Origin: a virus
Direction: 5' to 3' (one strand)
DNA: 64,000 bases
Virus record (IMG/VR): IMGVR_UViG_3300020421_002402
Span: 1 to 64,000 of that record
The notes under the pieces are model-generated. The model saw only the letters and a list, made by a program, of their open reading frames with translations, was not told where the DNA came from and searched no databases. Numbering within the stretch: the stretch's first letter is position 1; each line of letters opens with the position of its first letter. Positions 16,883 through 63,925 of the stretch are shown here, in pieces. The translations under genes and the position numbers were made by a program.

Positions 16883-19189
16883 ATGCAAGTACAGAAAAGA
16901 GATGGGCGACTAGAAGATATTAACATCGATAAATTACACAAAGTCGTCATGTATGCCTGTGAAGACATAACTGGAGTAAGTGCTTCACAAGTTGAAATAA
17001 ATTCACAAATTCAATTCTACGATAAAATCAGTTCAGAAGATATTCAAGAAACAATTATTAAAAGTGCGGCTGACCTTATCAGTGAAGAAACACCAAACTA
17101 TCAATATGTAGCAGGACGTCTAATCAATTATCATTTGCGTAAAATGGTATACGGAACATTCGAACCACCTTGCTTATGTGATATTGTACAAGACAATATA
17201 GATGCAGGATTTTATGATTCTGAATTTACAGACTTGTTTACTAAAGATGAAATTAACGAATTACAAAGTTTTATAGACCATAGCAGAGATGAATATTTAA
17301 CTTATGCGGCTATGGAACAATTCCGTGGAAAGTACCTAGTACAAAATAGAGCAACAGGTGAAATATTTGAAACACCACAAGTTGCATACATGATGATTGC
17401 CGCAACATTGTTTGCAAAATATCCTGCTGACAAAAGAATGAAATACATTAAAGACTACTATGATGCAATTAGTAAGTTTTTAATTAGTTTGCCTACACCT
17501 GTAATGGCAGGTGTGAGAACACCACAAAGACAATTTAGCAGTTGTGTATTAATTGAAACAGATGATAGTTTAGATAGTATCAATGCAACAAGTAGCAGTA
17601 TAGTAAAATATGTGAGCCAAAAAGCAGGTATTGGAATTGGAGCAGGCAGAATAAGAGCAATTGGTTCTAAGATTAGGAGTGGAGACGCAACTCACACAGG
17701 AGTTATTCCCTTCTATAAATTATTCCAGTCTGCTGTAAAAAGTTGTTCACAAGGTGGTGTTAGAGGCGGAGCGGCTACACTATACTATCCAATTTGGCAC
17801 TTAGAAATTGAAGATATGTTAGTGCTTAAAAATAACAAAGGAACAGAAGACAATAGAGTACGTCATATGGACTATGGTGTACAGTTTAACAAATTAATGT
17901 ATGAAAGATTATTAGCAGGTGAAAACATCACATTATTCTCCCCACATGATGTTCCTGAAGTTTATGATGCTTTCTTTTCTGACCAGGATAAGTTTAAAGA
18001 AGTTTACGAAGCGGCAGAAAGAAAAACCAGCATTAGGAAAAAATCAATACCAGCAGTAGAACTTTTCAGTAACTTTGTTCAAGAAAGAAAAGACACTGGT
18101 AGAATTTATTTAATGAATGTTGACCATGCAAACACACATGGTTCTTTTATTGAGGACGTTGCCCCAATTAAACAAAGTAATTTATGTTGTGAAATTGACT
18201 TACCAACTAAACCTTTAACAAATATAGAAGATCCTAATGGTGAAATAAGTCTATGTACTTTGAGTGCAGTCAATTGGGGTGCCATTAAAAGTTTAGAGCA
18301 AATGGAAAAAGTATGCGACTTGGCTGTTAGAGCATTAGATGAATTATTAGATTATCAAGAATATCCTATTGAAGCGGCAAGACGTAGTACAATGAATAGA
18401 CGCCCATTAGGAATTGGTATTATTAATTTTGCATATTGGATGGCAAAAAATGATAGCACATATCAAGAACCAAACTTAGATATGGTAGACACTTGGACTG
18501 AAGCATGGAGTTATTACTTAATTAAAGCAAGTGCCGATTTGGCAGTAGAGAAAGGTGCATGTCCTAAGTCCAATGAAACTAAATACAGTTTGGGTATTAC
18601 TCCTAATCAAACATACAAAAAAGATGTTGACGAATTAGTGAAACATCAAGAACGTGCAGATTGGGAAAGTTTAAGAAAACAATTAAAAGAAACAGGTATT
18701 AGAAATAGTACACTAATGGCATTGATGCCTGCTGAAACATCAGCACAGATTAGTAACAGTACAAATGGTATTGAACCGCCAAGAAGTTATGTTAGTATTA
18801 AGCAAAGCAAACATGGTGTGTTAAAGCAAGTAGTACCTGGCTTCCCAAGATTAAAAAACAAGTATGATTTACTTTGGGACCAAAAGTCACCAGAGGGTTA
18901 TTTAAAGATTATGGCAATCCTACAAAAGTACATTGACCAAGGTATTTCGGTAAATACGTCATACAATCCAGAACACTTTGAAGATGAGAAAGTGCCTATG
19001 AGTATGTTGTTACAACACCTAGTAATGTTTTATAAATATGGTGGTAAACAATTATACTATAATAACACTCACGATGGACAAGGTGAGATTGATATAAACA
19101 AAGAAGAAACTGCTCAGGTGCAGTTTATAGAATCAAGTAATGTTTCTCCATTACTTGAAGATGATGATTGCGAGAGTTGTAAAATTTAA
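16883..19189 (+). CDS. nrdA: Ribonucleoside-diphosphate reductase, class Ia large subunit
   Basis: 768 residues, full length. It reduces ribonucleoside diphosphates to deoxynucleotides, supplying phage DNA synthesis. The N-terminus (VQKRDGRLEDINIDKLHKVV) is an ATP-cone allosteric domain. Active-site cysteines are visible in QFSSCVLIE, SNLCCEIDLP and ISLCTLSAVN, and the C-terminal CESCKI holds the redox-active Cys pair that is re-reduced by thioredoxin or glutaredoxin. The stop touches the nrdB ATG (TAATG). It is transcribed from its own strong sigma70-type promoter. Confidence 0.96.
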   Translation: MQVQKRDGRLEDINIDKLHKVVMYACEDITGVSASQVEINSQIQFYDKISSEDIQETIIKSAADLISEETPNYQYVAGRLINYHLRKMVYGTFEPPCLCDIVQDNIDAGFYDSEFTDLFTKDEINELQSFIDHSRDEYLTYAAMEQFRGKYLVQNRATGEIFETPQVAYMMIAATLFAKYPADKRMKYIKDYYDAISKFLISLPTPVMAGVRTPQRQFSSCVLIETDDSLDSINATSSSIVKYVSQKAGIGIGAGRIRAIGSKIRSGDATHTGVIPFYKLFQSAVKSCSQGGVRGGAATLYYPIWHLEIEDMLVLKNNKGTEDNRVRHMDYGVQFNKLMYERLLAGENITLFSPHDVPEVYDAFFSDQDKFKEVYEAAERKTSIRKKSIPAVELFSNFVQERKDTGRIYLMNVDHANTHGSFIEDVAPIKQSNLCCEIDLPTKPLTNIEDPNGEISLCTLSAVNWGAIKSLEQMEKVCDLAVRALDELLDYQEYPIEAARRSTMNRRPLGIGIINFAYWMAKNDSTYQEPNLDMVDTWTEAWSYYLIKASADLAVEKGACPKSNETKYSLGITPNQTYKKDVDELVKHQERADWESLRKQLKETGIRNSTLMALMPAETSAQISNSTNGIEPPRSYVSIKQSKHGVLKQVVPGFPRLKNKYDLLWDQKSPEGYLKIMAILQKYIDQGISVNTSYNPEHFEDEKVPMSMLLQHLVMFYKYGGKQLYYNNTHDGQGEIDINKEETAQVQFIESSNVSPLLEDDDCESCKI

Positions 19190-20648: not shown

Positions 20649-20649
20649 G

Positions 20650-20656
20650 ATAAATA
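20650..20656 (+). promoter_or_regulatory. T4-like late promoter element, 12 nt before ATG
   Basis: ATAAATA with its first A exactly 12 nt upstream of the ATG at 20662 of the PAAR gene. Confidence 0.65.
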
Positions 20657-20925: not shown

Positions 20926-20941
20926 ACCACACCTTCTACAG

Positions 20942-20948
20942 ATAAGTA
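20942..20948 (+). promoter_or_regulatory. Possible variant late promoter element
   Basis: ATAAGTA, one base off ATAAATA, with its first A 13 nt before the ATG at 20955. The spacing is like the other late sites; the sequence is weaker. Confidence 0.35.
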
Positions 20949-20954
20949 TGTATC

Positions 20955-22097
20955 ATGCTTATAATTCAATTTAATGACTATATAGACCCTGCAAATTTCC
21001 CTGTTGAAATTGTACAATCATTTAAACATAATACATTCTTAATAGATTGTGAAATAAGCGAATATGACGTCATTTCCGCAATAACCAGTACTTATTCAGT
21101 GTCAAGTATGCAATCTAATGAAGATTGTGCGTATATTGACGTCTATGAGCGTCATACAACGTCATATACAACAGTTTCTCCCGAAGATACACTTGCGCCA
21201 CTCATAGAAAAACTAGACCTTTTAGCGGTACAAGAGCCCAAGATATTGTGTTTTAGTTGGCAAATGGACCGTAATTACATAGTAGATTACCGTATAGAAC
21301 AACTAATTAAAGCAGGACATATGGTAGTTTGTGCAGGTGGAAACAAGGATTTGCCTGTAATAGATATAAGTCCAGTTGCAGTAGATGGTGTAATTAGAGT
21401 GGGTGGAAACAAGCATAATGGTTACTATCAGAACTGGATAGACATATATGATGTAATTGATCCTACTGAACCAAACAGCAATAAAGCAGTTCATAACATT
21501 TGTACTAAAATGGTACACAAGCAATTAGAACTAGATTATGAACTTGCGTATTACAGTGATAGTAGTGTTCGTAGTGCTCCTTGGCCTCTTAGACTCGCAC
21601 AGACGCCGTCTAACGAAGCAAAATACTATGAATTTAATCCTGTATCCAATTTGAGATATTGTGCAGGAGAGCATTTAATACCAGTTAGACCAGGCGACCA
21701 AGTTAGTGTTTTATATGGAGGCGTACAATTAGAAGATTATGTAGATGCAAGATATGTAGATATGGGTGTTGAAATGCCACGTGGAATAACATTTAATATT
21801 GATAGTGGTTGGTTGTATGGAACTTTTAAATTTAAAACCAACATGTTTCATAGATTCCAAGCAGACATAAATGGACAATTATTTGAATACCATATGATAA
21901 GTTGTGATGCAGATAATAAACTTACTTACGATGATGTAAAACACAAATACTTTAATAGACCATATGATGCACCTCCATTTACAATGAGAGAATATTGGGT
22001 GCCTATGGCAAGACCTGTTAAACTTTTAGAACCAGGCGACCCTTTTATTAGAACTTATAATCTAAATGATTTACATTTATACAGGGAATTCGAATGA
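20955..22097 (+). CDS. Degenerate subtilisin-like fold protein with Ig-like C-terminal domain
   Basis: 380 residues. The middle part (about 95-155) has the architecture of a peptidase S8 core: an ILCFSWQ strand, a helix ending in IKAGHMVVCAGGNKD (compare the AAGN motif), then ISPVAVDGVIRVGG (compare SPA, VDG-VI-VG). The catalytic Ser motif GTSMA is not seen, so it is probably inactive. About 245-310 (VEMPRGITFNIDSGWLYGTF) resembles putative Ig domains of surface proteins. It overlaps the next gene by ATGA and heads a seven-gene overlapping cassette. Confidence 0.5.
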   Translation: MLIIQFNDYIDPANFPVEIVQSFKHNTFLIDCEISEYDVISAITSTYSVSSMQSNEDCAYIDVYERHTTSYTTVSPEDTLAPLIEKLDLLAVQEPKILCFSWQMDRNYIVDYRIEQLIKAGHMVVCAGGNKDLPVIDISPVAVDGVIRVGGNKHNGYYQNWIDIYDVIDPTEPNSNKAVHNICTKMVHKQLELDYELAYYSDSSVRSAPWPLRLAQTPSNEAKYYEFNPVSNLRYCAGEHLIPVRPGDQVSVLYGGVQLEDYVDARYVDMGVEMPRGITFNIDSGWLYGTFKFKTNMFHRFQADINGQLFEYHMISCDADNKLTYDDVKHKYFNRPYDAPPFTMREYWVPMARPVKLLEPGDPFIRTYNLNDLHLYREFE

Positions 22098-23050
22098 GAG
22101 GTGTAACATTTAGTGAATTTGGAAATGGACAAAACGTTGATATGTTTGTTCAAGCACCAGACGTAATTCCTCGTACTCCATTTATTGAGGCAATTGAAAC
22201 AGCCAAAAAAATTAGACAAAAATTTACTAAAGATTTATATGTATGGTGCGATTATAGTGTACAACACATATATTCACAAATTGCTATGCAAGGATTTAAA
22301 ATGGCAGGTATAGATTTTGTAGCCGCTATTCCTGTGTTAAGCAATAATTTAAGTAAACGTGAAAACGATTGCAGTATTGCATATTGTGAAGCAAGAGGAA
22401 TAAAGTATGAATTATTTCCTATAGATGTTCCAGCACTTTTTGATGGAGAAGAGTTTGAATATTATGGAGAAAAATTTCCTACTACACAACCACAAATGAC
22501 AATAGCAGGAAAGTTTTTTGATTTACTTCCTGATTGTTGCATTGTTTATCCTGGATTTATGATGCATGTTAGCAATAGCGATTGGACAAGAACTAAAAAT
22601 AACGGCTTTATGCCTTTTGTACCACATCAAACACAAGAACATGCCGCCGAAGTAAGTGGCAAAGAGTACACAAATTTTCAAGAACACTATGTTGATATGT
22701 ATAGTAGTTGGATGTTTACGCAAAGTTATGGAGAAGTTCTAAAGTCTTCCACACAAGAATTTGTTGATAATGCCCCACACAGATACTATCAATATGAAGT
22801 AAGAACTATCAAACAAGCAGGTTTCGACATAAAACCTACAACACAGAAGTTAATAGGCATTGAATTGCTTAAAAGTCACTTCGGACATGATAAATACGAT
22901 AATACACTAAGACAAAGATTAGCACCATTTGGGCCTTTGACCTTAAAGTATGCTAGTCTACAATATACAGTAAAAGTAGACACTAGACTTAAGGAAATGT
23001 TAGAAAAACATCATGAAACGAACTTTGACTTCATTAACAAACTTTTTTAA
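22094..23050 (+). CDS. PP-loop ATPase-like phage protein, probably degenerate
   Basis: 318 residues. The layout resembles ATP-pyrophosphatase (asparagine-synthase-like) phage proteins: an LYVWCDYS strand-loop where SGGxDS would lie, a helix, an AIPVLSNN strand, a Cys-containing AYCEARGIKYELFPID helix-strand, then FPTTQPQMTIAGKFFDLL. The canonical Ser-Gly-Gly loop is missing, so ATP use is doubtful. It overlaps the desaturase downstream by 38 nt. A specific function cannot be named. Confidence 0.42.
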   Translation: MRGVTFSEFGNGQNVDMFVQAPDVIPRTPFIEAIETAKKIRQKFTKDLYVWCDYSVQHIYSQIAMQGFKMAGIDFVAAIPVLSNNLSKRENDCSIAYCEARGIKYELFPIDVPALFDGEEFEYYGEKFPTTQPQMTIAGKFFDLLPDCCIVYPGFMMHVSNSDWTRTKNNGFMPFVPHQTQEHAAEVSGKEYTNFQEHYVDMYSSWMFTQSYGEVLKSSTQEFVDNAPHRYYQYEVRTIKQAGFDIKPTTQKLIGIELLKSHFGHDKYDNTLRQRLAPFGPLTLKYASLQYTVKVDTRLKEMLEKHHETNFDFINKLF

Positions 23051-23837
23051 AGATAAAGCAAAAATAAATTTTTGGCTATATACTCTTCCTATACAATTAG
23101 TAGGATGGAGCATTATACCTATTATGGCATACAATGGCGACTGGAACTACTTATGGCTAGGCTTACTTACATACTTCTTATTTGGATGTGTGGGAATGGC
23201 TATCGGATTACATAGGTATTGGGGTCACAAAGCATTTGAAATGCCCAAATGGAAAGAAAGGATTATGACCACGTTTAGTGTTTTTAATGGTTATGGTAGT
23301 ATATTTCCTTGGGTTATGATACATGAAAAAGGACATCATAAAAACAGTGATAGAGAAGATGATCCGCATTCACCATTACAAGGTTTTTGGCATGCCTTTT
23401 TGACATGGCACAGAGAACAAAAATATTTTGATAAACACATAGATAGACGTACTTTGGTTACTTACATAAGAAGAGAGTTTGTAACTGATAAGTATTATAC
23501 GTTTTTAAATGACAATCATATAGCAATTAACTATGGAACATTTGCACTAGCATGGTTATTGTTTGGTTGGCAAGTTGCACTATACGGTATCTGGTTTGGT
23601 ATATGGGCAACACTAATGAATACCAGTTTGGTAACAGCACTTAGTCATTACAGTTGGTTTGGCTATAGAAATTTTGATACACCAGATAATAGTGTAAATA
23701 ATAGAGTAGGTGCTATCCTTACATTTGGTGAAATGTTACACAACAATCATCATAAACATTGGAGAGCATCAAGTAACAGTCAACACTGGAGCGAAGTAGA
23801 TATCAGTGGTTGGGTAATCAACGGACTTAAAAAATAA
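23013..23837 (+). CDS. Fatty-acid desaturase, copy 1
   Basis: 274 residues, with several hydrophobic transmembrane stretches (about 22-60 and 175-215). The three histidine boxes of membrane diiron desaturases are present: HRYWGH at 67-72, HEKGHH at 104-109 and HNNHHKH near 240. The family inserts cis double bonds into acyl-CoA or lipid-bound acyl chains using oxygen and reduced ferredoxin or cytochrome b5. Box 2 is HEKGHH rather than the commoner HRxHH. The stop touches the next desaturase start (TAATG). Confidence 0.88.
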   Translation: MKRTLTSLTNFFKDKAKINFWLYTLPIQLVGWSIIPIMAYNGDWNYLWLGLLTYFLFGCVGMAIGLHRYWGHKAFEMPKWKERIMTTFSVFNGYGSIFPWVMIHEKGHHKNSDREDDPHSPLQGFWHAFLTWHREQKYFDKHIDRRTLVTYIRREFVTDKYYTFLNDNHIAINYGTFALAWLLFGWQVALYGIWFGIWATLMNTSLVTALSHYSWFGYRNFDTPDNSVNNRVGAILTFGEMLHNNHHKHWRASSNSQHWSEVDISGWVINGLKK

Positions 23838-24610
23838 TGTTATTTTATTTAATATTTTTACCAGTAGCATTTATATCCTTAATATGGAGTATCTTCAACG
23901 GCAGTTTACAATTATATTGTGCTACTGCTTTATTTACAATTCTTTACAGTGGATACGGTATAAGTGTTGGATTTCATAGATTACACAGTCATAACAGTTT
24001 TAAAACTTGGGAACCTATAAGAAAATTACTTTTATATCTAGGTTGTCAAGGAGCACAAGGCTCTCCTATTACTTGGAGTCTTTTACACAACAGAAGTCAT
24101 CATGCACACACAGACAAAGAAGGAGATGTACACACTCCAACTAAAGGATTATTTTATGCATTCTTTGGTTGGATATTCCGCAAAGCAAATCATGAATTTG
24201 CCAGAACAGAGTTGTTTAAAATAAGAAAACAACTTGATCCGTTTGCATTATGGTGTCATAAAAATTATCACTTTTTATTAATATTAAATTTAGCACTTTT
24301 AGGTTTACTAACTTTTTGGATTCCGGGTGTTGAAGGAAGATATATACTTGCTAGTTTAAACGCAAGTTTCCTAAGTGTAATTATAAGTGGTATTGTAAAC
24401 GTATTTGGTCATACACCTATTAAAGGTTTGACATACGAAACAACACCAATGAAAAATAGAAGTACTAATAATCCTTGGTTAGCATTATTTACATGGGGTG
24501 AAAGTTTACATAACAATCATCATTATAAACCAAGAAGATTAAACTTTAATACTAAATGGTATGAAATGGATGTAGGCAGATGGATGATATCAACAATAAA
24601 GAAATCTTAA
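23837..24610 (+). CDS. Fatty-acid desaturase, copy 2
   Basis: 257 residues, hydrophobic. Histidine boxes are HRLHSH at 47-52, HNRSHH at 84-89 followed by AHTDKEGD, and HNNHHY near 230. It is closer to the classical delta-9 acyl-CoA desaturase pattern than copy 1 and shares only the box framework with it, so it may act on another position or substrate. Translation is coupled to copy 1. The tandem pair suggests deliberate remodelling of host or virion-associated lipids. Confidence 0.88.
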   Translation: MLFYLIFLPVAFISLIWSIFNGSLQLYCATALFTILYSGYGISVGFHRLHSHNSFKTWEPIRKLLLYLGCQGAQGSPITWSLLHNRSHHAHTDKEGDVHTPTKGLFYAFFGWIFRKANHEFARTELFKIRKQLDPFALWCHKNYHFLLILNLALLGLLTFWIPGVEGRYILASLNASFLSVIISGIVNVFGHTPIKGLTYETTPMKNRSTNNPWLALFTWGESLHNNHHYKPRRLNFNTKWYEMDVGRWMISTIKKS

Positions 24611-25182
24611 GAACATTTTTTGAAGGAAAAATTGGCTGTATAGAATACAGCGATAAATGGTTACCTCAACTAGAAAAGTTTTGCAGTATTGCAAAAGACT
24701 GCGGATACGAAAACAATTCGTCACCAGAAGCAATGAAAGTAGATGAGATACAATATCATTGCATGGTGCATATACCTACAAATGAAATTTATGCAGTAGC
24801 AGGTGTACAGTATATGCCTGAATACAAAGATGGCTATTACAGAATATGGACACGTCTTTGTAGAATTCCTAAAGATGATATTCCTATGACAAGAACAAGA
24901 AGATATGGTAGAGGAGAGATGCCTGAGTTTGACGGATTATTATATTTTAATTGTGAATGGGCAACTAAACAACCTAATTTTAAAGCAACATTTGGAACTA
25001 CATTAGCCAACAAAGCCTATGCAGACAATTATGTAAGAAGCAGTAATACTATTACAGATTATGTAAAGAGAAATTGGTGGCTTAAAAAAGGTATTGCAGA
25101 GCCTGAAGGTATTACAGAATTTTATTCTGTTCCACAAGTAGTGTGGAGAATGTATTTCAACAAGTTTAAAGAGTTAAGTTAA
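24580..25182 (+). CDS. Phage GNAT-like protein, function unknown
   Basis: 200 residues. The segment CGYENNSSPEAMKVDEIQYH and then EIYAVAGVQYMPEYKDGYYRIWTRLCR matches a family widespread in marine T4-like phages; its alpha/beta order recalls N-acetyltransferases, but no acetyl-CoA loop is obvious. It starts inside the desaturase 2 gene (31 nt overlap) and its stop touches the hydrolase start. Confidence 0.5.
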   Translation: MDDINNKEILRTFFEGKIGCIEYSDKWLPQLEKFCSIAKDCGYENNSSPEAMKVDEIQYHCMVHIPTNEIYAVAGVQYMPEYKDGYYRIWTRLCRIPKDDIPMTRTRRYGRGEMPEFDGLLYFNCEWATKQPNFKATFGTTLANKAYADNYVRSSNTITDYVKRNWWLKKGIAEPEGITEFYSVPQVVWRMYFNKFKELS

Positions 25183-26039
25183 TGAAAAATATAAAAAGAG
25201 TTTTATTTCAAGTCAAAAGTTCCAAAAACATTTTTTGGGACGACACACCAATTAGAATTGGATGTCAATTAGTAGTACCAGATAAATTCGCAGGTGACCA
25301 ACCATTGTGTATTATAAGTCATGGTTCAGGTGGATTAGGCAGTGATACGGATTTATTTGTAGACAGTTTAGGCAAACAAGGTATTGCAACTTTATGTGTT
25401 GATAGTTTTACAGGTAGAAGTATGGAAGCCATTGGCTGGAATGACTTCAGTGGATATGTAAGTCCTAGAATGAGAGCATTAGAAACTGTAGAAGCATATA
25501 AATTTTTATGTGAAAATCATAGAAATATGTTTGCAGGTTTAAATTTAAACAAACTTGCATTTGTAGGATTTAGTTGGGGTGCCGATACTGTTGCAAATGT
25601 AATTGCACACTATAATGAAACATTGCCTAAAGAAACATTTTTTGCACTATGTTATGGAAACTTATGGCCCTTTGAAGAAGCATTCCACAAAGCAAAAGAA
25701 TATGATGTTACTTTGTATCATGGTGCTGAAGATAATTGGACTCATCCAGAAAAAAGTAAAATATTTGCAGATGAGACAAACAGCAAGTATGTAGAATTTT
25801 TTGATTGTGTACATGGATTTTGTAAACCTGGATATGATGATGAAGTTGCAGAACAAGTAATAGTAAACTATCATGCACCTTTTCCTGTGCCAACAGAATT
25901 GAAAGAAGTTTATAGTTGGATACAAAAAGGAAAAATTTGGGAAGATACAGAATGGCAACGTGTTGATGCAAAAATGTCTTATGACCAAATGGCTACAGAA
26001 CAGATTCTAAACGACATCATTACTAAATTAACCAAGTAA
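25182..26039 (+). CDS. Dienelactone-hydrolase-like alpha/beta hydrolase
   Basis: 285 residues. It has an oxyanion-hole loop ISHGSGG at about 45-51, a nucleophile elbow GFSWGAD with Ser131, an Asp in HGAEDNW near 187 and the catalytic His in CVHGF near 211, in the order of the alpha/beta-hydrolase fold. The Ser nucleophile differs from the Cys of classical dienelactone hydrolase, so an esterase or lipase-like role is more likely. It is the last overlapping gene of the desaturase cassette. Confidence 0.78.
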   Translation: MKNIKRVLFQVKSSKNIFWDDTPIRIGCQLVVPDKFAGDQPLCIISHGSGGLGSDTDLFVDSLGKQGIATLCVDSFTGRSMEAIGWNDFSGYVSPRMRALETVEAYKFLCENHRNMFAGLNLNKLAFVGFSWGADTVANVIAHYNETLPKETFFALCYGNLWPFEEAFHKAKEYDVTLYHGAEDNWTHPEKSKIFADETNSKYVEFFDCVHGFCKPGYDDEVAEQVIVNYHAPFPVPTELKEVYSWIQKGKIWEDTEWQRVDAKMSYDQMATEQILNDIITKLTK

Positions 26040-26045
26040 ATTACG

Positions 26046-26052
26046 ATAAATA
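26046..26052 (+). promoter_or_regulatory. T4-like late promoter element, 12 nt before ATG
   Basis: ATAAATA with its first A exactly 12 nt upstream of the ATG at 26058; the intervening tattggt is repeated upstream of 49446. Confidence 0.65.
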
Positions 26053-26057
26053 TTGGT

Positions 26058-27110
26058 ATGAGCAAACTCATATCGGTTGTAGGGCCACACTTTTACGCAC
26101 CAAATAATCCAGTTAATATACAATGGAGTATGGGTAATACCTGTAATTTCTCGTGTAATTACTGCCCAACTGTATTACATGATGGAACAAATCCATGGAT
26201 GCCTAAAGAAACATATCTTAAAACAATTGAAAAGGTCTGTGACTACTATAAAGAACACACTTATATGCATAACGGCGAAGAAAAAACTCGTGCTATGCAT
26301 TGGGAACTTATAGGCGGAGAAGTTACAACAATACCTGATTTTGAAGAAATATTGCAAAAATTATATGATTATAAAGCAAATGTTACAGTTTATTCAAATG
26401 GTAGTAGAACAGTACGTTGGTGGGAAGAAGCAAGAAATTATTTACAAGGAGTTGTACTTACATATCATCCTTTAACAATGGATAAGCAACACTTTAAAGA
26501 TGTCGTAGACGTACTTAAAGGGCATGTAACGGTAGATATAAGTATTGCAGGTATAAGTGGTCAAGTAGCAGAATTGTATGACTACGGTGAAGAATTAAGA
26601 GAAATGTTTAATGATGATAATGGTAGACAAAGTATATATGATGTAAGTATTGCTGTGAAAACATTATATAAAAAATTATTAGGCGACAACAATAATTACG
26701 ATACACAAGAAACTTGGTATGAATATAGTCCATATGAAATAGAGATAATGCAACGTCCAGGAGTTAAACCAAATCCTAATCCTGCTCCAGACAATACACC
26801 TAGTCATGTTAAGGGAGATCCTAAGTATTGGTCAACTGAATTTAAGTACGATGATGGAACTGTGAAGTATGTACAAAGCCATCAAATTATAAATGAAGGA
26901 CTTAACAAGTTTGGAGGAATGAAATGCCACTTAGGTTCCGAAGGACTCAATATAGACATGCATGGCGAAATAATTAGCAGTTGGTGTGGTGCAAAAAGTT
27001 TTGGAAATATCACACAAATTAAAGAATTAGAATTACCAACAGAACATTATACTTGTTCTTTTGAATACTGTAATAACCTAAATGACATCAGCATAACCAA
27101 ATCGTTATAA
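26058..27110 (+). CDS. Radical SAM protein with extra C-terminal cysteines
   Basis: 350 residues. CNFSCNYC (Cys29, Cys33, Cys36) is the CX3CX2C motif that binds the [4Fe-4S] cluster and cleaves S-adenosylmethionine; ELIGGEVTTIPDF follows in the place of the GGE motif. The C-terminal part has further cysteines (MKCHLG, SSWCGAK, YTCSFEYC) suggesting a second cluster of SPASM or twitch type, as in peptide- and metabolite-modifying enzymes. Substrate unknown. Its clusters could be supplied by the SUF genes of this window. Confidence 0.85.
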   Translation: MSKLISVVGPHFYAPNNPVNIQWSMGNTCNFSCNYCPTVLHDGTNPWMPKETYLKTIEKVCDYYKEHTYMHNGEEKTRAMHWELIGGEVTTIPDFEEILQKLYDYKANVTVYSNGSRTVRWWEEARNYLQGVVLTYHPLTMDKQHFKDVVDVLKGHVTVDISIAGISGQVAELYDYGEELREMFNDDNGRQSIYDVSIAVKTLYKKLLGDNNNYDTQETWYEYSPYEIEIMQRPGVKPNPNPAPDNTPSHVKGDPKYWSTEFKYDDGTVKYVQSHQIINEGLNKFGGMKCHLGSEGLNIDMHGEIISSWCGAKSFGNITQIKELELPTEHYTCSFEYCNNLNDISITKSL

Positions 27111-27777: not shown

Positions 27778-28359
27778 ATGGTCCCATATTACTTTGACAT
27801 ACCTGAATTAGAACTACCTTTTGATGTAGATGATAAGCCATATGTTCAGCACCCTGCTGACTATATGTCACCTTCAGGGTTAGGTTTGGGTGGTAATAGT
27901 TTTCAATATAGAGTTGTACCAGAGACTTGGTATAAAGATGTAAAAGAATATTTAGAAAGCAAACTTACAATACCAGTGGGAAGTTTAACACTTTTAAATA
28001 CAATGTGCAATTCATCAAGTCCTTGGCACAGTGAAGGCCCAGGAACATTTGGTAGGAAGTGTGCTTTAAACTTTATGGTTGCTGGAGACTTTGAACGTAG
28101 TTATGTACAATGGGCAACAAGAGGACTGCAAGAAGATATTGAAAACAATGACAAAGAACCTACTTGGTGGGAAGATGAAAACTTAGAAGTTTTAGCAGAA
28201 CATAGAATGACTCCAAGTAAGGCTACAATTTATAATACTATGCATTGGCACAGAGTATTTAATTTTACAGGTTGGAATAGATTAGTTATTAGTGCCGCAA
28301 TTAGGGAAGATATTCAAGAAGTTTTTAACTTGTACGAAAGTGATAAACTTTTTAAATAA
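27778..28359 (+). CDS. Dioxygenase-like beta-helix protein, paralogue A
   Basis: 193 residues. First of three tandem paralogues. They share an N-terminal YYFDIPELELPFDV motif, a central WHSEGPGTFGRKCALNF motif and a NTMHWHRVFN then WNRLVISAAI end. The His-x-Glu, distal His and Arg layout resembles the double-stranded beta-helix of 2-oxoglutarate/Fe(II) dioxygenases or cupins, though Glu replaces the usual Asp. Function unknown. A late promoter sits 12 nt upstream. Confidence 0.55.
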   Translation: MVPYYFDIPELELPFDVDDKPYVQHPADYMSPSGLGLGGNSFQYRVVPETWYKDVKEYLESKLTIPVGSLTLLNTMCNSSSPWHSEGPGTFGRKCALNFMVAGDFERSYVQWATRGLQEDIENNDKEPTWWEDENLEVLAEHRMTPSKATIYNTMHWHRVFNFTGWNRLVISAAIREDIQEVFNLYESDKLFK

Positions 28360-28362
28360 ATA
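28356..28362 (+). promoter_or_regulatory. T4-like late promoter element, 13 nt before ATG
   Basis: ATAAATA overlapping the stop of paralogue A, with its first A 13 nt before the ATG at 28369 of paralogue B. Confidence 0.55.
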
Positions 28363-28368
28363 TTACAG

Positions 28369-29034
28369 ATGAGTTTACCTTATTATTTTGAAGTACCAGA
28401 AATAGAATTACCTTTTGATGTTATGGATTATGTAGATGCTAATGCAAATCAAGAAGCATCGAGTAAAGGGCAATATCTTTGGATGATGGGGTATGACCAT
28501 AATAGTAAAAATACAAAAGATGGTTCTGCTCTAAGTGAAGAAACAGGAATGTCAGAACAACAAAATGCAGAAATGAGTAAGTTGTTAAGGGAATGGGCAA
28601 AAGATACATTTACTATTAGAACAACAAGTGTAAGTTTTTTAAGAACATTACCAGGACAAAATGGTTGGTGGCATTGTGAAGGACCTGCTTTTCGTGGTAG
28701 AAGGTGTGCATTAAATTTTTTAGTAGAAGGCGATGTGCAAAATACTAAAGCAGAGTGGGGGTATTGTAAACTTTGGGGAGATGTACCTGCAGAGCAAGTA
28801 GAACATAAAGGTTTTATTAAACCAGAATACTTACCTGAGATGGAAGTTTATGATGATGGAACTTATCAAAGTGATGTTTTAAACAGAGGTTTCTTTTACA
28901 ATACTATGTATTTGCATAGAGGAGTAAACGAAAACAGTAAAATGCATAGGACTATATTAAGTATAGCAGTACAAGAAAATTTAGATATACAAGCAGTATA
29001 TAAAGTATATCAAGAAGGAAAACTTTTTAAATGA
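28369..29034 (+). CDS. Dioxygenase-like beta-helix protein, paralogue B
   Basis: 221 residues. It has the same plan as paralogue A: YYFEVPEIELPFDV, WHCEGPAFRGRRCALNF, NTMYLHRGVN and a KVYQEGKLFK end. The middle differs by an insertion and a longer acidic loop. It overlaps the next gene by ATGA. It may modify a phage or host protein or sugar, but nothing in the sequence fixes a substrate. Confidence 0.55.
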   Translation: MSLPYYFEVPEIELPFDVMDYVDANANQEASSKGQYLWMMGYDHNSKNTKDGSALSEETGMSEQQNAEMSKLLREWAKDTFTIRTTSVSFLRTLPGQNGWWHCEGPAFRGRRCALNFLVEGDVQNTKAEWGYCKLWGDVPAEQVEHKGFIKPEYLPEMEVYDDGTYQSDVLNRGFFYNTMYLHRGVNENSKMHRTILSIAVQENLDIQAVYKVYQEGKLFK

Positions 29035-29747
29035 ATCAAAGAATAGAATTACCGTATTATTTCGAAGTACCAGAGATGCCTGAGATACCTTTTGATGTAC
29101 AGCAATATTTTGTAAGTGAACAACAAAGACATGAAGCACAAGATGATGTTAAAACACAAGACAAAGTTGAACAAGGTGAAAGTAGAAGTTTAAGTGCAAA
29201 TTGGTATCAAAGTTTTATAAAAGTAGATGAAAATAGTACACAAGATAAACGTGATTTCAAAGAAGTAAACTTATATGAAGAAGTAAATTTTGATTTAAGT
29301 AAACGCATGAAAGAATGGCTAGGTGATGTTTTAAATTTAAAATTTACAAGTATATTAATGTTAAGGACACCTGCAAATGCTAACAGTAGGTGGCATTGTG
29401 AAGGACCAGTATTCCACACCAGACAATGTGCATTGAACTTTCCAGTTTACGGTAATGCAGATGTAATGGAAGGACAATGGGCAACCTTTCCAAGATTCAA
29501 AGATGTTGATCCTAGAGAAAATGAAAAGTATGGATTTGTTACTAAAGACGATATGAAAGATACAAACATACTTTGTCGTTGGGACAAACCTACAGTTCCA
29601 GCATTCTACAACACAATGATTTTTCACAGAGGTTACAATGAATTGAGCAACGTGGATAGAGTTGTTTTAAGTTGTGCAGTGGAAGATTTTTCAGATATAA
29701 ACGTATGTTATCGGAAGTACCAAGGAGGTACTTTATTCAAAAATTAG
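29031..29747 (+). CDS. Dioxygenase-like beta-helix protein, paralogue C
   Basis: 238 residues. It shares YYFEVPEMPEIPFDV, WHCEGPVFHTRQCALNF, NTMIFHRGYN and the C-terminal YQGGTLFKN with paralogues A and B, and is the longest and most diverged. Tandem triplication with retained motif residues suggests diversification rather than decay. Confidence 0.55.
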   Translation: MNQRIELPYYFEVPEMPEIPFDVQQYFVSEQQRHEAQDDVKTQDKVEQGESRSLSANWYQSFIKVDENSTQDKRDFKEVNLYEEVNFDLSKRMKEWLGDVLNLKFTSILMLRTPANANSRWHCEGPVFHTRQCALNFPVYGNADVMEGQWATFPRFKDVDPRENEKYGFVTKDDMKDTNILCRWDKPTVPAFYNTMIFHRGYNELSNVDRVVLSCAVEDFSDINVCYRKYQGGTLFKN

Positions 29748-47003: not shown

Positions 47004-47357
47004 TTGACTTATGTAGTAAAGGGTGAATGCGTAGATTGTAAACATACTACCTGTGTGAAAGTGTGTCCTGTTGACTGTTTCCATGAAGGTGAAAATACAG
47101 TTGTTATAGACCCAGACGTCTGTATCGATTGTGCTATCTGTGAACCTGAATGCCCAGTAAATGCTATTGTGTCAGACAGAAAACTTGAAACAGAATCAGA
47201 CCAAGAGTGGCTAAAGTTTAACACAGACATGAGTAAAGAATGGCCCGTAATAACCAAAGTAAAAGACCCCTTACCTACTTACGAAGAAGCGGCTAATTAT
47301 ACCGATGATGAAAATTGGAGTAAAGTGAGTAGAATACCAGCCAAGCAAATCGATTAA
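47004..47357 (+). CDS. fdxA: 7Fe ferredoxin, FdxA type
   Basis: 117 residues with a TTG start, supported by an aaaggag site eight bases upstream and by fit to the family's MTYVV opening. CVDCKHTTCVKVCPVDC and CIDCAICEPECPVNAI give the cysteines for one [3Fe-4S] and one [4Fe-4S] cluster, as in proteobacterial FdxA. It carries electrons; partners could be the desaturases, the radical SAM enzyme or host enzymes. Most phage ferredoxins are plant-type 2Fe, so this type is unusual. Confidence 0.9.
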   Translation: MTYVVKGECVDCKHTTCVKVCPVDCFHEGENTVVIDPDVCIDCAICEPECPVNAIVSDRKLETESDQEWLKFNTDMSKEWPVITKVKDPLPTYEEAANYTDDENWSKVSRIPAKQID

Positions 47358-58628: not shown

Positions 58629-58931
58629 ATGACAGAACAAGTTGAACAAAAGACTAGAACTAATGTAGGATTAAAATACCCACCAAGGTATGATGTTATT
58701 ATTTTTAATGACGATTTTACTCCAGTAGAGTTTGTAATAAAACTACTAGTGGAAATATTTAATAAAAATTTAAAGTCTGCAAAAGACTTAACATTAGAAG
58801 TTCATGAGTCGGGCTCAGCAGTTGCTGGAACATATTCACATGAAATTGCAGAACAAAAATGTGGAGAAGCAATCACTGTTTCCAGAGGACAAGGACATCC
58901 TTTGCAACTTAAAGTCAACAAGGTTGAGTAA
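58629..58931 (+). CDS. clpS: ClpS adaptor protein
   Basis: 100 residues. [20 protein letters not shown] is the ClpS core, with the Asn-Asp-Asp-Phe-Thr substrate-pocket motif, and [20 protein letters not shown] gives the second half. ClpS delivers N-degron proteins to ClpAP, not ClpXP, so this copy would work with host ClpA. Its stop touches sufB, linking it to the SUF operon. Confidence 0.93.
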
Positions 58932-60388
58932 TGAGCATTGATAATTTTAATGAGAAATATTACAAAGAAGGATTCGTAACAGATTTAGAAAATGAAACCT
59001 TTCCCAAAGGTTTGAATGAAGACATTATAAAAAATATTAGTCTACTTAAAGATGAACCAGAGTGGTTACTTGAATACAGATTAAAAGCATTCAAAAGATG
59101 GGAGCAAATGAGTGAACCAGATTGGAGTGAACTGGATTATGAACCAGTTGACTATCAAGAATTAAGTTATTACTCTGCACCTAAAACAAGAAACAAAGAT
59201 GAAATACCACAAGAGATATTAGACACTTTTGAAAAGTTAGGTGTACCATTACATGAACGTGATGCACTTTTGGGTTTAGACACAGAAAAACCAAAACAAG
59301 AAAATCTCATTCCAACAGTAGCCGTTGATGCTGTCTTTGATAGTGTTAGTGTTGCTACAACATTTCAAAAAGAATTAAAGAAGCATGGCATTGTATTTTG
59401 CAGTATCAGTGAAGCAGTTAAAGACCATGAAGAACTAGTTAAAGAATATTTAGGTAGTGTCATACCTTACACAGACAATTACTTTGCTACACTGAACTCT
59501 GCTGTATTCACAGACGGTACTTTTGTGTACATTCCTAAAGGTGTAAAATGTCCTATGGAACTAAACACATACTTTAGAATAAATGCAAGAAACACAGGAC
59601 AATTTGAACGTACACTTATTATTGCAGACGAAGGCAGTTATGTAAGTTACTTAGAAGGTTGTACTGCACCAGCATATGATGAGAATACATTACATGCCGC
59701 CTGTGTAGAATTAATTACTAAAGACAATGCAGAAATAAAATACTCCACAGTACAAAATTGGTATCCAGGTAATGAAGATGGAGTAGGTGGTGTTTATAAC
59801 TTTGTAACAAAACGTGCTAAGTGTGAAGGTAAAAATAGTAAAGTTAGTTGGACCCAAGTAGAAACAGGTTCAGCAGTAACTTGGAAATATCCAAGTTGCA
59901 TTTTAAAAGGTGAAGGTAGTATTGGAGAGTTCTTTAGTGTTGCAGTAACAAAAGGCAAACAACAAGCAGACACAGGAACAAAAATGATACACTTAGGTAA
60001 GAATACCAAAAGCACCATTATATCCAAAGGTATAAGTTTTGGAGACAGCACAAATACATATAGGGGTTCAGTAAAAGTTAATCCAGGAGCCAAGAATGCG
60101 TCTAACTATACAAAGTGTGATAGTTTAATGTTACAAGACAGCAGAGCATTAACTATTCCTTATGTAACTAGTCAAAATGATAGTGCTATGATAGAGCATG
60201 AAGCAAGTGCTGGAAAAATTAGTGAAGAACAAATGTATTATCTAGCAACAAGAGGATTTAGTGAAGATGATGCAATGAATTTGGTTGTAAATGGATTTTG
60301 TAAAGATGTATTCCAAAAACTACCATTAGAGTTTGCCGCAGAAGCCAATCAGTTGTTAGCAGTACAACTGGAAGGTGCAGTTGGATAA
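58931..60388 (+). CDS. sufB: Fe-S cluster scaffold protein SufB
   Basis: 485 residues, full length. SufB, with SufC and SufD, builds Fe-S clusters. [20 protein letters not shown], then the TEGCTAP-like [40 protein letters not shown] and [20 protein letters not shown] match the family. In the segment [13 protein letters not shown], aligned to E. coli Cys405, no Cys is present; other SufB subgroups may also lack it, so cluster assembly on this site may differ. Coupled to clpS. Confidence 0.95.
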
Positions 60389-60390
60389 TA

Positions 60391-60419
60391 TTGACAATAC
60401 ACACATAAGGTAGTATAAT
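60391..60419 (+). promoter_or_regulatory. Internal sigma70-type promoter at the sufC start
   Basis: TTGACA at 60391-60396 and TATAAT at 60414-60419, spaced 17 nt. Only six bases separate the -10 box from the sufC ATG at 60426, which points to a leaderless message for sufCDST. Confidence 0.82.
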
Positions 60420-60425
60420 AACGGC

Positions 60426-61121
60426 ATGTTAAAATTAAAGAATTTTTCTGTAGAACATATACTTGAAGATATCACAACGACATTTGATTTAGGCAAGACT
60501 TATGTTGTAATGGGAAGTAATGGTGTAGGTAAAAGTACACTATTGCATGGCATTATGGGAAGACCTGACCTTAATGTATCTGGTGAAATAACTTTTTTGG
60601 GTAGTGACCTAACAGAGTTAGAGACAGATGAAAAAGCAAGGTTAGGAATGTTTGTTGGATTCCAAGCACCAACAAGTGTACCTGGTTTAAGTAATTTTCA
60701 ATTTATGAAACAAGCATTAAACATATCAGGTAAAGATATTGCAGAGACATTAAGAAATTTTAAAGACATAAGTGGTAAACTTAACTTGCCTGATAATTGG
60801 GACAAAAGAAACCTTAACACAGATGCTAGTGGTGGTGAGAAAAAGAAAAATGAACTTATTCAAATGAGTATGCTTAACACCAAACTGGCAATGCTTGATG
60901 AACCAGACAGTGGATTAGACGTTGATGGTATCAAAGCATTAATAGAACAACTTAACGAATGGCGTAATAATGATAACACTTTAATTGTTGTTACACACTA
61001 TCAAAAATTAGTTGAAGGCTTGAACCCAGACAAAGTATTAGTCTTGAAAAAAGACGGAGTTCTATCAGGCGGTATTGAACTTGCAGATAAAATATTTAGT
61101 CAAGGGTTTGAAAGTGTATAA
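60426..61121 (+). CDS. sufC: Fe-S assembly ATPase SufC
   Basis: 231 residues. ABC ATPase of the SufBC2D complex: Walker A GSNGVGKST, signature SGGEKKKNELIQMSML, Walker B MLDEPDSGLDVD and switch VVTHYQKLV. LDEPDSGLD is close to the family's LDExDSGLD. It powers conformational change for cluster building. sufD starts within its end. Confidence 0.96.
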   Translation: MLKLKNFSVEHILEDITTTFDLGKTYVVMGSNGVGKSTLLHGIMGRPDLNVSGEITFLGSDLTELETDEKARLGMFVGFQAPTSVPGLSNFQFMKQALNISGKDIAETLRNFKDISGKLNLPDNWDKRNLNTDASGGEKKKNELIQMSMLNTKLAMLDEPDSGLDVDGIKALIEQLNEWRNNDNTLIVVTHYQKLVEGLNPDKVLVLKKDGVLSGGIELADKIFSQGFESV

Positions 61122-62391
61122 AAATTTATTCTATAGAGAAACATTAGAACCAACAAAATCTTATGATAGTTTCTACACTATACAAGACTTGTATGATTTT
61201 GTTACAGGCGAAAATACAAAAACCAAAGACTATCATCATTTAAAACACAAACTAAATAATTTTTACACAGGTTATAACAACAATGTAGATTATATTACAG
61301 GCACCGGTTTACCCAATCCAAAGTCTGAACAGTTTAACTTTGCAAACTTGCATAAATTTTATAACAAAGAAATACTGTGGTCAAGTTCTCCAGCAGAAAA
61401 ACAATACCTAGCAGACTTAGAACCTTTTGAAACAGTAGCATTCAAAAAGAATACATTATTGTTTAATGATGGTATGGTTTTTCCTAGCAACGATTTAGGA
61501 ATAAAGAAACCTTTTCAATTACAAATTTTAGACCAAATAAAAGTAAACAGAAACAAACAAGATGAATATGTAAAGTTAATTAGAAACACAGAAAACTTTT
61601 CTAACTTTACATACGCATTCTCGCCTTTTTTGAATACAATAATTATACCTTCTGGTGCTAATGGATCATTTATGAAAAATCCAATTAGTATTAATTATGT
61701 GAACAAAAATTCTAAAGGCATATTAGAATGCAATACAAATATTATAGATGTACAACACAAAACAAAAGTTCATTTAAAAGAGAATGTAAAATTACAATCT
61801 GGACAAATGAATAACATAATTTATGTTGTGAGAGAAAACAGTGAACTAGTCATAGATAGAGTTACAAATGATTTTGGTGGCTTCGGTATATTTGATAGCA
61901 AATTTATTTGCCACCCCAACAGTAAAATTACTATTAATTTTAAAAATACAGGATCCGACTATTATCAAGAAAACTTTTATTTTGATATGACTACAAATGT
62001 AGACTTAACACTAAATGGCAGGAATAACATTTACAAAGGACATGAATATCATCAATACGTTCATGTAGACAGTAGAAGTTCAGACAACAAAAGTACTATA
62101 GATATAAAAAATGTTGGAAATGAAAAAGTCAATACAAGTTTTATAGGAAGGTTTGATGTTAGTCCTAATAGTGTGGGTTTTGATGGTCACATGAAAAATG
62201 AAAATTTAATGTTGACTCCAAATACAAAAATGCACTCCAGACCCATACTAGATATACATACCAAAGAAATTGAGTGTACTCATGGTTGTACCATAAGTAA
62301 TATAGATAAAAGCAAATTATATTATTTGCAGAGCCGAGGCCTTCCAAAAGACATAGCCGAGGACGTATTAGTAAGTAGTTTTTTATGTTAA
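61114..62391 (+). CDS. sufD: Fe-S assembly protein SufD
   Basis: 425 residues from the GTG at 61114, which has an aaggg site upstream and overlaps sufC by eight bases; a TTG at 61075 would add 13 residues. IECTHGCTISNIDKSKLYYL then QSRGLPKDIAEDVL match SufD, with the Cys-x-His (CTHG) residues that serve in E. coli SufD. The N-terminal half is diverged. Overlaps sufS by seven bases. Confidence 0.92.
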   Translation: MYKNLFYRETLEPTKSYDSFYTIQDLYDFVTGENTKTKDYHHLKHKLNNFYTGYNNNVDYITGTGLPNPKSEQFNFANLHKFYNKEILWSSSPAEKQYLADLEPFETVAFKKNTLLFNDGMVFPSNDLGIKKPFQLQILDQIKVNRNKQDEYVKLIRNTENFSNFTYAFSPFLNTIIIPSGANGSFMKNPISINYVNKNSKGILECNTNIIDVQHKTKVHLKENVKLQSGQMNNIIYVVRENSELVIDRVTNDFGGFGIFDSKFICHPNSKITINFKNTGSDYYQENFYFDMTTNVDLTLNGRNNIYKGHEYHQYVHVDSRSSDNKSTIDIKNVGNEKVNTSFIGRFDVSPNSVGFDGHMKNENLMLTPNTKMHSRPILDIHTKEIECTHGCTISNIDKSKLYYLQSRGLPKDIAEDVLVSSFLC

Positions 62392-63599
62392 AAGTTTATA
62401 AAAAAGCAAAAGATATCAAACAGATTAGGAATTGTTTTCCTAGTTTAGCATATAGCGAATTGACATACTTGGACAATGCCGCAAGTAGTCAAACTGTTGA
62501 TAGTTCAATCAAAGCGGTAAGTGATTATCACTACAATTACAGAGCAAATGTTCATAGGGGAGACTTTAAGACTAGTACTATTGCAAGTGACAAGTATGAC
62601 GAAGCAAGAGTAGAAGTTGCAAAACTTATTAATGCTGAACCACATGAGATTGCTTTTACAAATGGTACAACTGCAAGTTTAAACATAATTGCAGATTGGA
62701 CTCCATTAGAGCCAGCAGTAATTATGACTGAGGTAGAGCATCACAGTAACATTTTACCTTGGATGCAACAAGGTAGAACAAAAGCAAACGGTCAATTAGT
62801 TATAGTACCAGGCAATGATGAAGGTAATGTAGATGTTAATGCTTGGTATGAAACAATAAAAGATAATCCAGGAAGTGTTTGCAGTTTCTTAACACAAAGT
62901 AATTTTACAGGACAAGAACTTCCTTGGCAACAAATGATAATGATTGCAAAGGAACATGACTGTGAAGTTGTAATAGATGCATGCCAAAGCATAGGACATA
63001 AACCGATAGATGTTAAAAAGAATGATATAGATTGGATGGCATTTAGTGGTCACAAGATGTATGCAAGTACAGGTACAGGAGTATTGTATCACAAAGGTGG
63101 ATTTGATGATGTTCAAACATGGTTAGGTGGAGGAACAATTACACAATGTGATTTTGATACATTCACTATGAAAAGAGGACCTGAAAGAATGGAAGCCGGT
63201 ACACCAAATGTTGCAGGTGTTCACAGTTTAGGTGCGGCGGCAAAATGGATACAAGATATCACATACAATGAAATACATGAATGTGAAACAGAATTTTTTA
63301 ATATGTTAAAAGACAAAGGTCTATTTGACATAGAACAAATGGAACTTATTGGACCTACTAAACCAAATAGTGTTTATAGTTTCAAAGTAAAAGGTACAAG
63401 TCCAAGTGACTTGGCAGGATTTTTAGACATGCAAAATGTTTGTGTGAGGACGGGCCATATGTGTGCCTATCCGGCAAGTTATAGATATACAAATAGTGAT
63501 GGGATTTTACGAGTTAGTTCAGCACCATATAATGATGAACATGATTGCGTAAAATTAGTTGAGGGATTATGGCAGGCGATAGAAAAGATGAAACTGTAG
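62385..63599 (+). CDS. sufS: Cysteine desulfurase SufS
   Basis: 404 residues, near the 406 of E. coli SufS. It frees sulfur from cysteine using PLP. TYLDNAASSQTVDSS opens the fold, TEVEHHSNILPW is conserved, FSGHKMYASTGTGVLY holds the PLP Lys, and RTGHMCAYP holds the persulfide Cys. No SufE or SufU partner is visible in the window; one may lie downstream. Overlaps sufT by 31 bases. Confidence 0.95.
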   Translation: MLKVYKKAKDIKQIRNCFPSLAYSELTYLDNAASSQTVDSSIKAVSDYHYNYRANVHRGDFKTSTIASDKYDEARVEVAKLINAEPHEIAFTNGTTASLNIIADWTPLEPAVIMTEVEHHSNILPWMQQGRTKANGQLVIVPGNDEGNVDVNAWYETIKDNPGSVCSFLTQSNFTGQELPWQQMIMIAKEHDCEVVIDACQSIGHKPIDVKKNDIDWMAFSGHKMYASTGTGVLYHKGGFDDVQTWLGGGTITQCDFDTFTMKRGPERMEAGTPNVAGVHSLGAAAKWIQDITYNEIHECETEFFNMLKDKGLFDIEQMELIGPTKPNSVYSFKVKGTSPSDLAGFLDMQNVCVRTGHMCAYPASYRYTNSDGILRVSSAPYNDEHDCVKLVEGLWQAIEKMKL

Positions 63600-63925
63600 G
63601 ACCACCTGATAATTTACAGGACCAATTAGTAGAACAAATCATAGCAAACTTGCGTAGAGTTTACGATCCTGAATTAAACTTAAATGTTTACGATTTAGGT
63701 TTGATTTATGAAGTTGCAGTGAATAAAGAATATGACGCACAAGTTATCATGACACTTACTACACCTAATTGTCCAGCCGCAGAAATAATTCCAATGGAAA
63801 TAGAGTTTGCCACTAGAGCAGTTGAGTGCATTAATAAAGTGAACATTGTTTTAACCTTTGATCCACCCTGGGACCCCCATGTGATGGTAAGTGATGAAGG
63901 TAAGTACCAATTGGGACTACTATGA
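63569..63925 (+). CDS. sufT: SufT/DUF59 (MIP18-like) Fe-S maturation protein
   Basis: 118 residues. VYDPELNLNVYDLGLIYEVA and TTPNCPAAEIIPMEIEFA match DUF59, with the conserved Cys in PNCP and the WDPH segment. SufT helps deliver clusters to target enzymes. Order sufB-C-D-S-T is that of many alphaproteobacterial SUF operons, which suggests transfer of the whole block. Overlaps the next start. Confidence 0.9.
   Translation: MAGDRKDETVGPPDNLQDQLVEQIIANLRRVYDPELNLNVYDLGLIYEVAVNKEYDAQVIMTLTTPNCPAAEIIPMEIEFATRAVECINKVNIVLTFDPPWDPHVMVSDEGKYQLGLL

Follow-up and report, generated by a model that had tools for sequence, protein, structure and literature searches.

Two divergent predicted membrane desaturases in a conserved, overlapping six-gene cassette of uncultured jumbo phages

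The window, i.e. the whole stretch of DNA that was analysed, comprises bases 1-64000 of the 110,193-bp IMG/VR record IMGVR_UViG_3300020421_002402. Between positions 20955 and 26039 it carries six codirectional genes, named g1 to g6, two of which (g3 and g4) encode predicted membrane desaturases. A preliminary description of the sequence had reported that the six genes overlap end to end and, indeed, all five junctions do so, by 4, 38, 1, 31 and 1 bp. The gap to the following gene, g7, amounts to 18 nt. On the 5' side the cassette is preceded by both ribonucleotide reductase genes and a PAAR protein; on the 3' side g7 is followed by three paralogous proteins, which resemble 2-oxoglutarate (2OG) oxygenases by motif reading, and then by the conserved genes g12 and g13. 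The features of the locus are as follows:

20649..20656, + strand: GATAAATA, late-type element 5 nt 5' of the PAAR start codon
20662..20925, + strand: PAAR-motif spike-tip-like protein, upstream neighbour of g1 (Pfam PF05488, E 3e-10; PHROG 281)
20941..20948, + strand: GATAAGTA, late-type element of g1, fitting [GTA]ATAA[AG]TA
20955..22097, + strand: g1, predicted pseudo-subtilase without catalytic motifs, with a weak C-terminal He_PIG-like stretch
22094..23050, + strand: g2, predicted pseudo-PP-loop protein, SGGxDS lost
23013..23837, + strand: g3, predicted membrane desaturase, boxes HRYWGH / HEKGHH / HNNHH
23837..24610, + strand: g4, predicted membrane desaturase, boxes HRLHSH / HNRSHH / HNNHH
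24580..25182, + strand: g5, GNAT-fold protein, putative acyltransferase (weak profile match, AlphaFold2 model)
25182..26039, + strand: g6, predicted alpha/beta hydrolase, triad Ser131-Asp184-His211
26045..26052, + strand: GATAAATA, late-type element of g7, directly before this gene
26058..27110, + strand: g7, radical S-adenosylmethionine (SAM) protein with CX3CX2C (PF04055, above cut-off)

Viral contigs were scanned with g2, g3, g4 and g5 as queries. The whole cassette was found in the same order in nine further lineages, so that the search for this gene order in other phage contigs, which had been suggested before, revealed conserved co-occurrence. Three of the contigs (L018, L019 and L020 with 40, 217 and 340 kb) are one lineage, and two others (L009 and L010) end within or just past the cassette. 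Protein identities to the window range from 46% (g1 of the 340-kb contig) up to 97%, and order and overlaps were preserved across this range. All seven genes are under purifying selection, with pairwise ratios of nonsynonymous to synonymous substitution rates (dN/dS) of 0.03-0.33 and g2 among the most constrained. A chance overlap of unrelated open reading frames (ORFs) was ruled out by the conserved order, the overlaps and the dN/dS values. The 110-kb record is collinear with the 340-kb contig along most of its length. Its clamp loader is most similar to those of PA5oct-like Pseudomonas jumbo phages (55% identity) and of the Agrobacterium phage Atu_ph07 (46%), but no homologue of g1, g2, g5 or g6 was found in 50,697 phage records. 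The phages form an uncultured, T4-related jumbo clade, which is probably of marine origin.

For comparison, related loci without the cassette were fetched via ribonucleotide reductase. Sixteen of them span the region from PAAR to g12 with other gene sets in place of the cassette, and a profile search detected neither a desaturase nor g5 or g6 in these loci. Since the same neighbours occur there without a desaturase, the cassette is accessory. A partial cassette was not found inside the PAAR-g12 locus. The PAAR gene flanks the cassette in all relatives and is adjoined by g7 in relatives that lack it, which makes g7 a backbone gene of the locus. Four relatives have an extra gene between g6 and g7, which resembles SGNH hydrolases by motif only and had no match in Pfam.

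In many of the cassette-free loci there are a subtilase and a PP-loop protein whose motifs (DSG, HGT/HGH, GTS and SGGxDS, respectively) are intact. This allowed the claim that the first two cassette proteins are repurposed enzymes to be examined against intact homologues from the same site. By hhalign, g1 matched the subtilases of the locus with E 2e-9 and g2 matched 20 intact PP-loop ORFs with E 1e-5 over 213 columns, including the PQ and C-terminal regions; the swapped controls were negative (0.15 and 0.59). Thirteen homologous ORFs of the locus have the Asp-His-Ser triad motifs, which are absent from g1 in ten of ten copies, and the SGGxDS site, intact in the 20 homologous ORFs, reads CDYSVQ or QDYSVQ in all ten copies of g2. 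Compared with the Protein Data Bank, g1 matched subtilisin with E 0.003; its C-terminal He_PIG match is weak and was seen in four members. The structural model of g2 is of low confidence, with a predicted local distance difference test (pLDDT) value of 48, and its top matches are PP-loop proteins (TtuA, NAD synthetase and beta-lactam synthetase), a fold that agrees with PP-loop descent. Because intact homologues occur at the locus and the motifs are lost in all ten copies, g1 and g2 are best read as non-catalytic, still selected descendants, and we propose that they are retained as binding or structural proteins, as the preliminary description had supposed. In this reading two former enzymes have decayed here to proteins that are conserved but non-catalytic, and related phages keep the intact versions at that site. 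Weak Pfam matches of g2 to Methyltransf_28 and exportin were dropped in favour of PP-loop, given the homology to the intact copies. The intact subtilase/PP-loop pair is linked to PAAR in many related contigs, in codirectional or divergent arrangement (e.g. L181:12223-15572, L199:13590-16236 and L205:13115-15856); it occupies the same post-PAAR locus and is homologous to g1/g2, but has its motifs intact and is not accompanied by desaturases.

The two desaturases are only ~27% identical to each other. Both matched the NCBIfam model DesA_fam (E 9e-20 for g3 and 1e-14 for g4), each under the curated cut-off of the model, and in Pfam g4 matched PF00487 above cut-off (E 2e-17) while g3 was not matched. 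Profile comparison identified stearoyl-CoA desaturases as the closest solved structures (SCD1; E 2e-11 for g3 and 1e-15 for g4). Three histidine boxes (HX3-4H, HX2-3HH, HX2-3HH) were found in 23 of 23 phage copies, boxes 1 and 3 being canonical, and the metal histidines are invariant in 10 g3 and 13 g4-type copies. By hydropathy, g4 has three hydrophobic segments and g3 has two distinct ones; desaturases of this type have four transmembrane helices. We therefore assign g3 and g4, by sequence, as probable divergent membrane desaturases of the SCD/DesC kind, in line with the earlier call of two divergent desaturases. In a tree g3 and g4 each form a supported clade, but the joining of the two is uninformative because of long branches. 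The g4 genes of L034, L036 and L042 nest within the g4 clade of the cassette, from which it follows that g4 moved alone into other phages; the cassette is to this extent less obligate than had been implied. The travelling g4 appears to have carried the overlapping start of g5 along. In L042 (10001-11712) the g4-type desaturase is followed by a glycosyltransferase-like gene with a g5-like start, which looks as though another gene had become joined to the 31-bp overlap. As for a cellular source, a genome scan yielded only matches of ~30% identity, and no close match was present in 42 genomes of one bacterial order. The 340-kb phage (G001) has a third, canonical desaturase (8492-9262 in L060:2742-14249) amid radical SAM-like genes, in a run that also contains one 2OG-oxygenase-like and one aminotransferase-like gene.

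The match of g5 to the GNAT profile is weak (E 0.022). Its AlphaFold2 model has a pLDDT of 67, and the structure matches listed for it are mostly GNAT proteins with template-modelling scores of ~0.4, one of them under E 0.001. The order of secondary-structure elements fits a GNAT fold, and no clear acyl-CoA pyrophosphate-binding motif was seen in the g5 alignment. From the model, g5 may be classified as a GNAT-like protein and putative acyltransferase; it had no significant match to the GNAT protein of L181. The Pfam matches of g6 are weak and under cut-off, and its nucleophile elbow GFSWGAD, GxxDxW and HGF, which carry the triad, are invariant in nine of nine copies. It is thus predicted to be an alpha/beta hydrolase, as stated before, with an intact triad. 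In g7, C29, C33 and C36 of the CX3CX2C motif are invariant.

The element GATAAATA is enriched in the window, with 14 sites compared to 5.25 expected; none of 100 shuffles reached 14. The sister form [GTA]ATAA[AG]TA lies 5-6 nt 5' of g1 in ten of ten copies, and g7 has its own element in eight of eight relatives, as had been noted for the window. Neither form was found upstream of g2-g6. Since elements precede g1 and g7 and none precedes g2-g6, g1-g6 would be one transcription unit and g7 a separate one. The GATAAATA in front of the PAAR gene is present in L003 and L020 and absent from the other relatives. GATAAATA resembles the T4 late promoter and may function as such. Sites of GATAAATA in the window include 20649, 26045, 33574 and 49433. 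Across G000 and G001, an ATG follows the element most often at a distance of exactly 5 nt (5 and 12 sites, respectively). Together with a T4-type geometry this spacing would place the transcript start on the A of the ATG, which suggests that the late mRNAs are leaderless. A second, broad group of spacings lies at ~17-33 nt.

Further genes for acyl and iron-sulfur chemistry are encoded elsewhere in the phage:

47004..47357, + strand: 7Fe-type ferredoxin, candidate electron donor (cysteine pattern, Fer4/DUF3470; 75% identical in G001)
Record 71751-72965: ketoacyl synthase, 77% identical in the 340-kb phage
Record 84549-85340: class 3 lipase
Record 103562-103765: acyl carrier protein (ACP) with DSLD (DSL serine motif)
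Window 58931-63925: Suf set, with SufB at 58931, SufC-like ABC ATPase at 60426, SufD at 61075, SufS at 62385 and FeS_assembly_P at 63569

The ferredoxin had been named before as a possible donor, and its cysteine pattern is of the 7Fe type. The start of the ketoacyl synthase gene is preceded 5 nt upstream by an ATAAATA element. The 340-kb relative likewise encodes a ketoacyl synthase, an ACP, a class 3 lipase, a ferredoxin and SufB/C/D/S, and the near-complete Suf set is collinear there. Because the same phages encode these proteins, acyl-lipid chemistry is favoured. Remodelling of lipids, as suggested in the preliminary description, became more plausible through the ketoacyl synthase, the ACP and the lipase, with the substrate still a deduction. 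Ketoacyl synthases with 76-86% identity occur in further viral contigs; these contigs lack the entire region of the cassette and are uninformative on cassette carriage.

We consider it somewhat probable that g1-g6 are a late operon that desaturates acyl chains of the host with a phage ferredoxin as electron source. According to this model, g3 and g4 would act as di-iron membrane desaturases and introduce double bonds into acyl chains in the infected cell, whether these are attached to phospholipid, ACP or CoA. The 7Fe ferredoxin would donate the electrons, and its clusters could be built with the help of the phage Suf set. g6 might release acyl groups, g5 might transfer an acyl or acetyl group, and the ketoacyl synthase, the ACP and the lipase of the phage could supply or recycle chains. 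As a result, the membrane would be more unsaturated when virions are assembled and the cell lyses, with g1 and g2 as catalytically dead descendants kept for binding or structure. If this is true, jumbo phages possess more than a stray desaturase gene, namely a conserved late operon that serves acyl chemistry, and they also encode an electron carrier, the Fe-S assembly proteins, an ACP and a condensing enzyme. The locus would then offer a direct way to test whether host membranes are rebuilt by phages ahead of lysis.

Several points weigh against this model. Box 2 reads HX3HH in all 23 g3 and g4 phage copies, whereas almost all comparators (SCD1, the desaturase of pelagiphage Mosig, the third desaturase of G001 and cellular homologues) have HX2HH; the cellular homologues L088 and L089 read HHRxHH, which fits both. 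HX3HH falls inside the general range for this box. Given this spacing, the geometry or the reaction could differ. A complete fatty-acid pathway was not found in the phage. The ACP is not taken as proof of fatty-acid synthesis since in Eneladusvirus jumbo phages an ACP is encoded near spanin-like genes and was detected in virions (PMC7760394), and the ACP gene here follows a lipoprotein-like gene. The late timing is drawn solely from the resemblance of a motif. Late timing, substrate and activity, electron route, the roles of g5 and g6 and the physiological benefit are all deduced from sequence. Finally, the PAAR, radical SAM and 2OG-type neighbours would also suit the modification of a virion part.

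In the main rival explanation the desaturase-fold enzymes would have a target other than bulk lipid. This could be a component of the virion (the PAAR spike or a tail fibre, for example), a surface glycan, or a small molecule to whose synthesis the adjacent GNAT, radical SAM and 2OG-type enzymes contribute. The position of the locus between PAAR and radical SAM/2OG-type genes speaks for it, as do the radical SAM cluster around the third desaturase of the 340-kb relative, the aminotransferase, MoaA-like, TauD and tail-fibre genes that surround the Mosig desaturase, and the unusual box 2. On the other hand, g4 travels alone without these neighbours, acyl-CoA desaturases are the closest structures, and the radical SAM gene forms a unit of its own, which occurs also in the absence of the cassette; we regard such a target as unlikely, although to be reckoned with. 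HX3HH in all 23 copies could also indicate that g3 and g4 belong to the hydroxylases, or to other oxygenases within this superfamily, with a box-2 spacing nearer to alkane monooxygenase than to desaturases, and g3 indeed has a weak profile match to AlkB structures. This appears quite improbable, as the matches to SCD1 are far stronger and the proteins are short, as in DesC-type desaturases. We give similarly little credence to the view that the genes are independent cargo of a PAAR-g12 recombination hotspot, their adjacency reflecting shared late transcription and not a joint pathway: the other gene sets in the 16 cassette-free loci, the lone g4 elsewhere and the different gene grafted onto the overlap would be expected from it, but order and overlaps are kept at 46-97% identity and no part of the cassette was found by itself in the locus. 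A more far-reaching version of acyl modification, which we hold to be doubtful, is a phage-specific machine in which the dead subtilase and the dead PP-loop protein serve as scaffold or substrate-presenting subunits for the two HX3HH desaturases; it would yield an acyl product that the host itself does not make, either a modified lipid or a virion part carrying an acyl group, for deployment with the PAAR spike or at lysis.

Cyanophages are reportedly the source of virus-encoded fatty-acid desaturases described by Roitman in 2018. Phages from sea ice and cryopeg encode desaturases with three His boxes and an SCD1-like structure, with five copies in one phage, for which a role in membrane fluidity was proposed (PMC7300359). 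These phages and the cyanophages share with ours phage-borne membrane desaturases, several copies per phage, but in the present phages the two copies differ strongly from each other and are arranged head to tail within a conserved cassette of overlapping genes, together with g1, g2, g5 and g6. HX3HH is a further feature of the present cassette as set against the comparators used here. Freshwater pelagimyophages PMP-D have fabF and a stearoyl-CoA-type desaturase in one phage, mentioned in a single annotation sentence; they belong to another phage lineage, and such an operon is not described for them (PMC7029224). Roseophage prophages with acpP-fabF-fabG (PMC8224337) likewise combine phage-located ACP and ketoacyl synthase, but in a contiguous, host-like fab cluster and with no desaturases reported, whereas in the present phage the two genes are ~30 kb apart. 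A jumbo phage with a desaturase was not found in the open literature, subscription journals being outside the scope. The earlier statement that no phage system of this make-up is described thus stands for the cassette, but not for its parts, since phage desaturases, phages with several of them and phages with fabF plus desaturase are published (PMC7300359, PMC7029224). We regard as new the conserved cassette of six genes, its two desaturases with HX3HH and the partners that derive by decay from a subtilase and a PP-loop protein; phage desaturases themselves were already known.

Some minor observations concern other genes. The ketoacyl synthase and SufB also had matches in records that bear the label Listeria or Staphylococcus phage, probably owing to contamination with host DNA. 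The phage studied here further has genes for IMP dehydrogenase and NAD synthase (L053:13629-14687 and 17719-18678). The three tandem paralogues downstream of g7 (window 27778-29747) have WHxEGP and HR motifs and differ in copy number among relatives; they are possibly 2OG oxygenases of the Asp/Arg hydroxylase kind.

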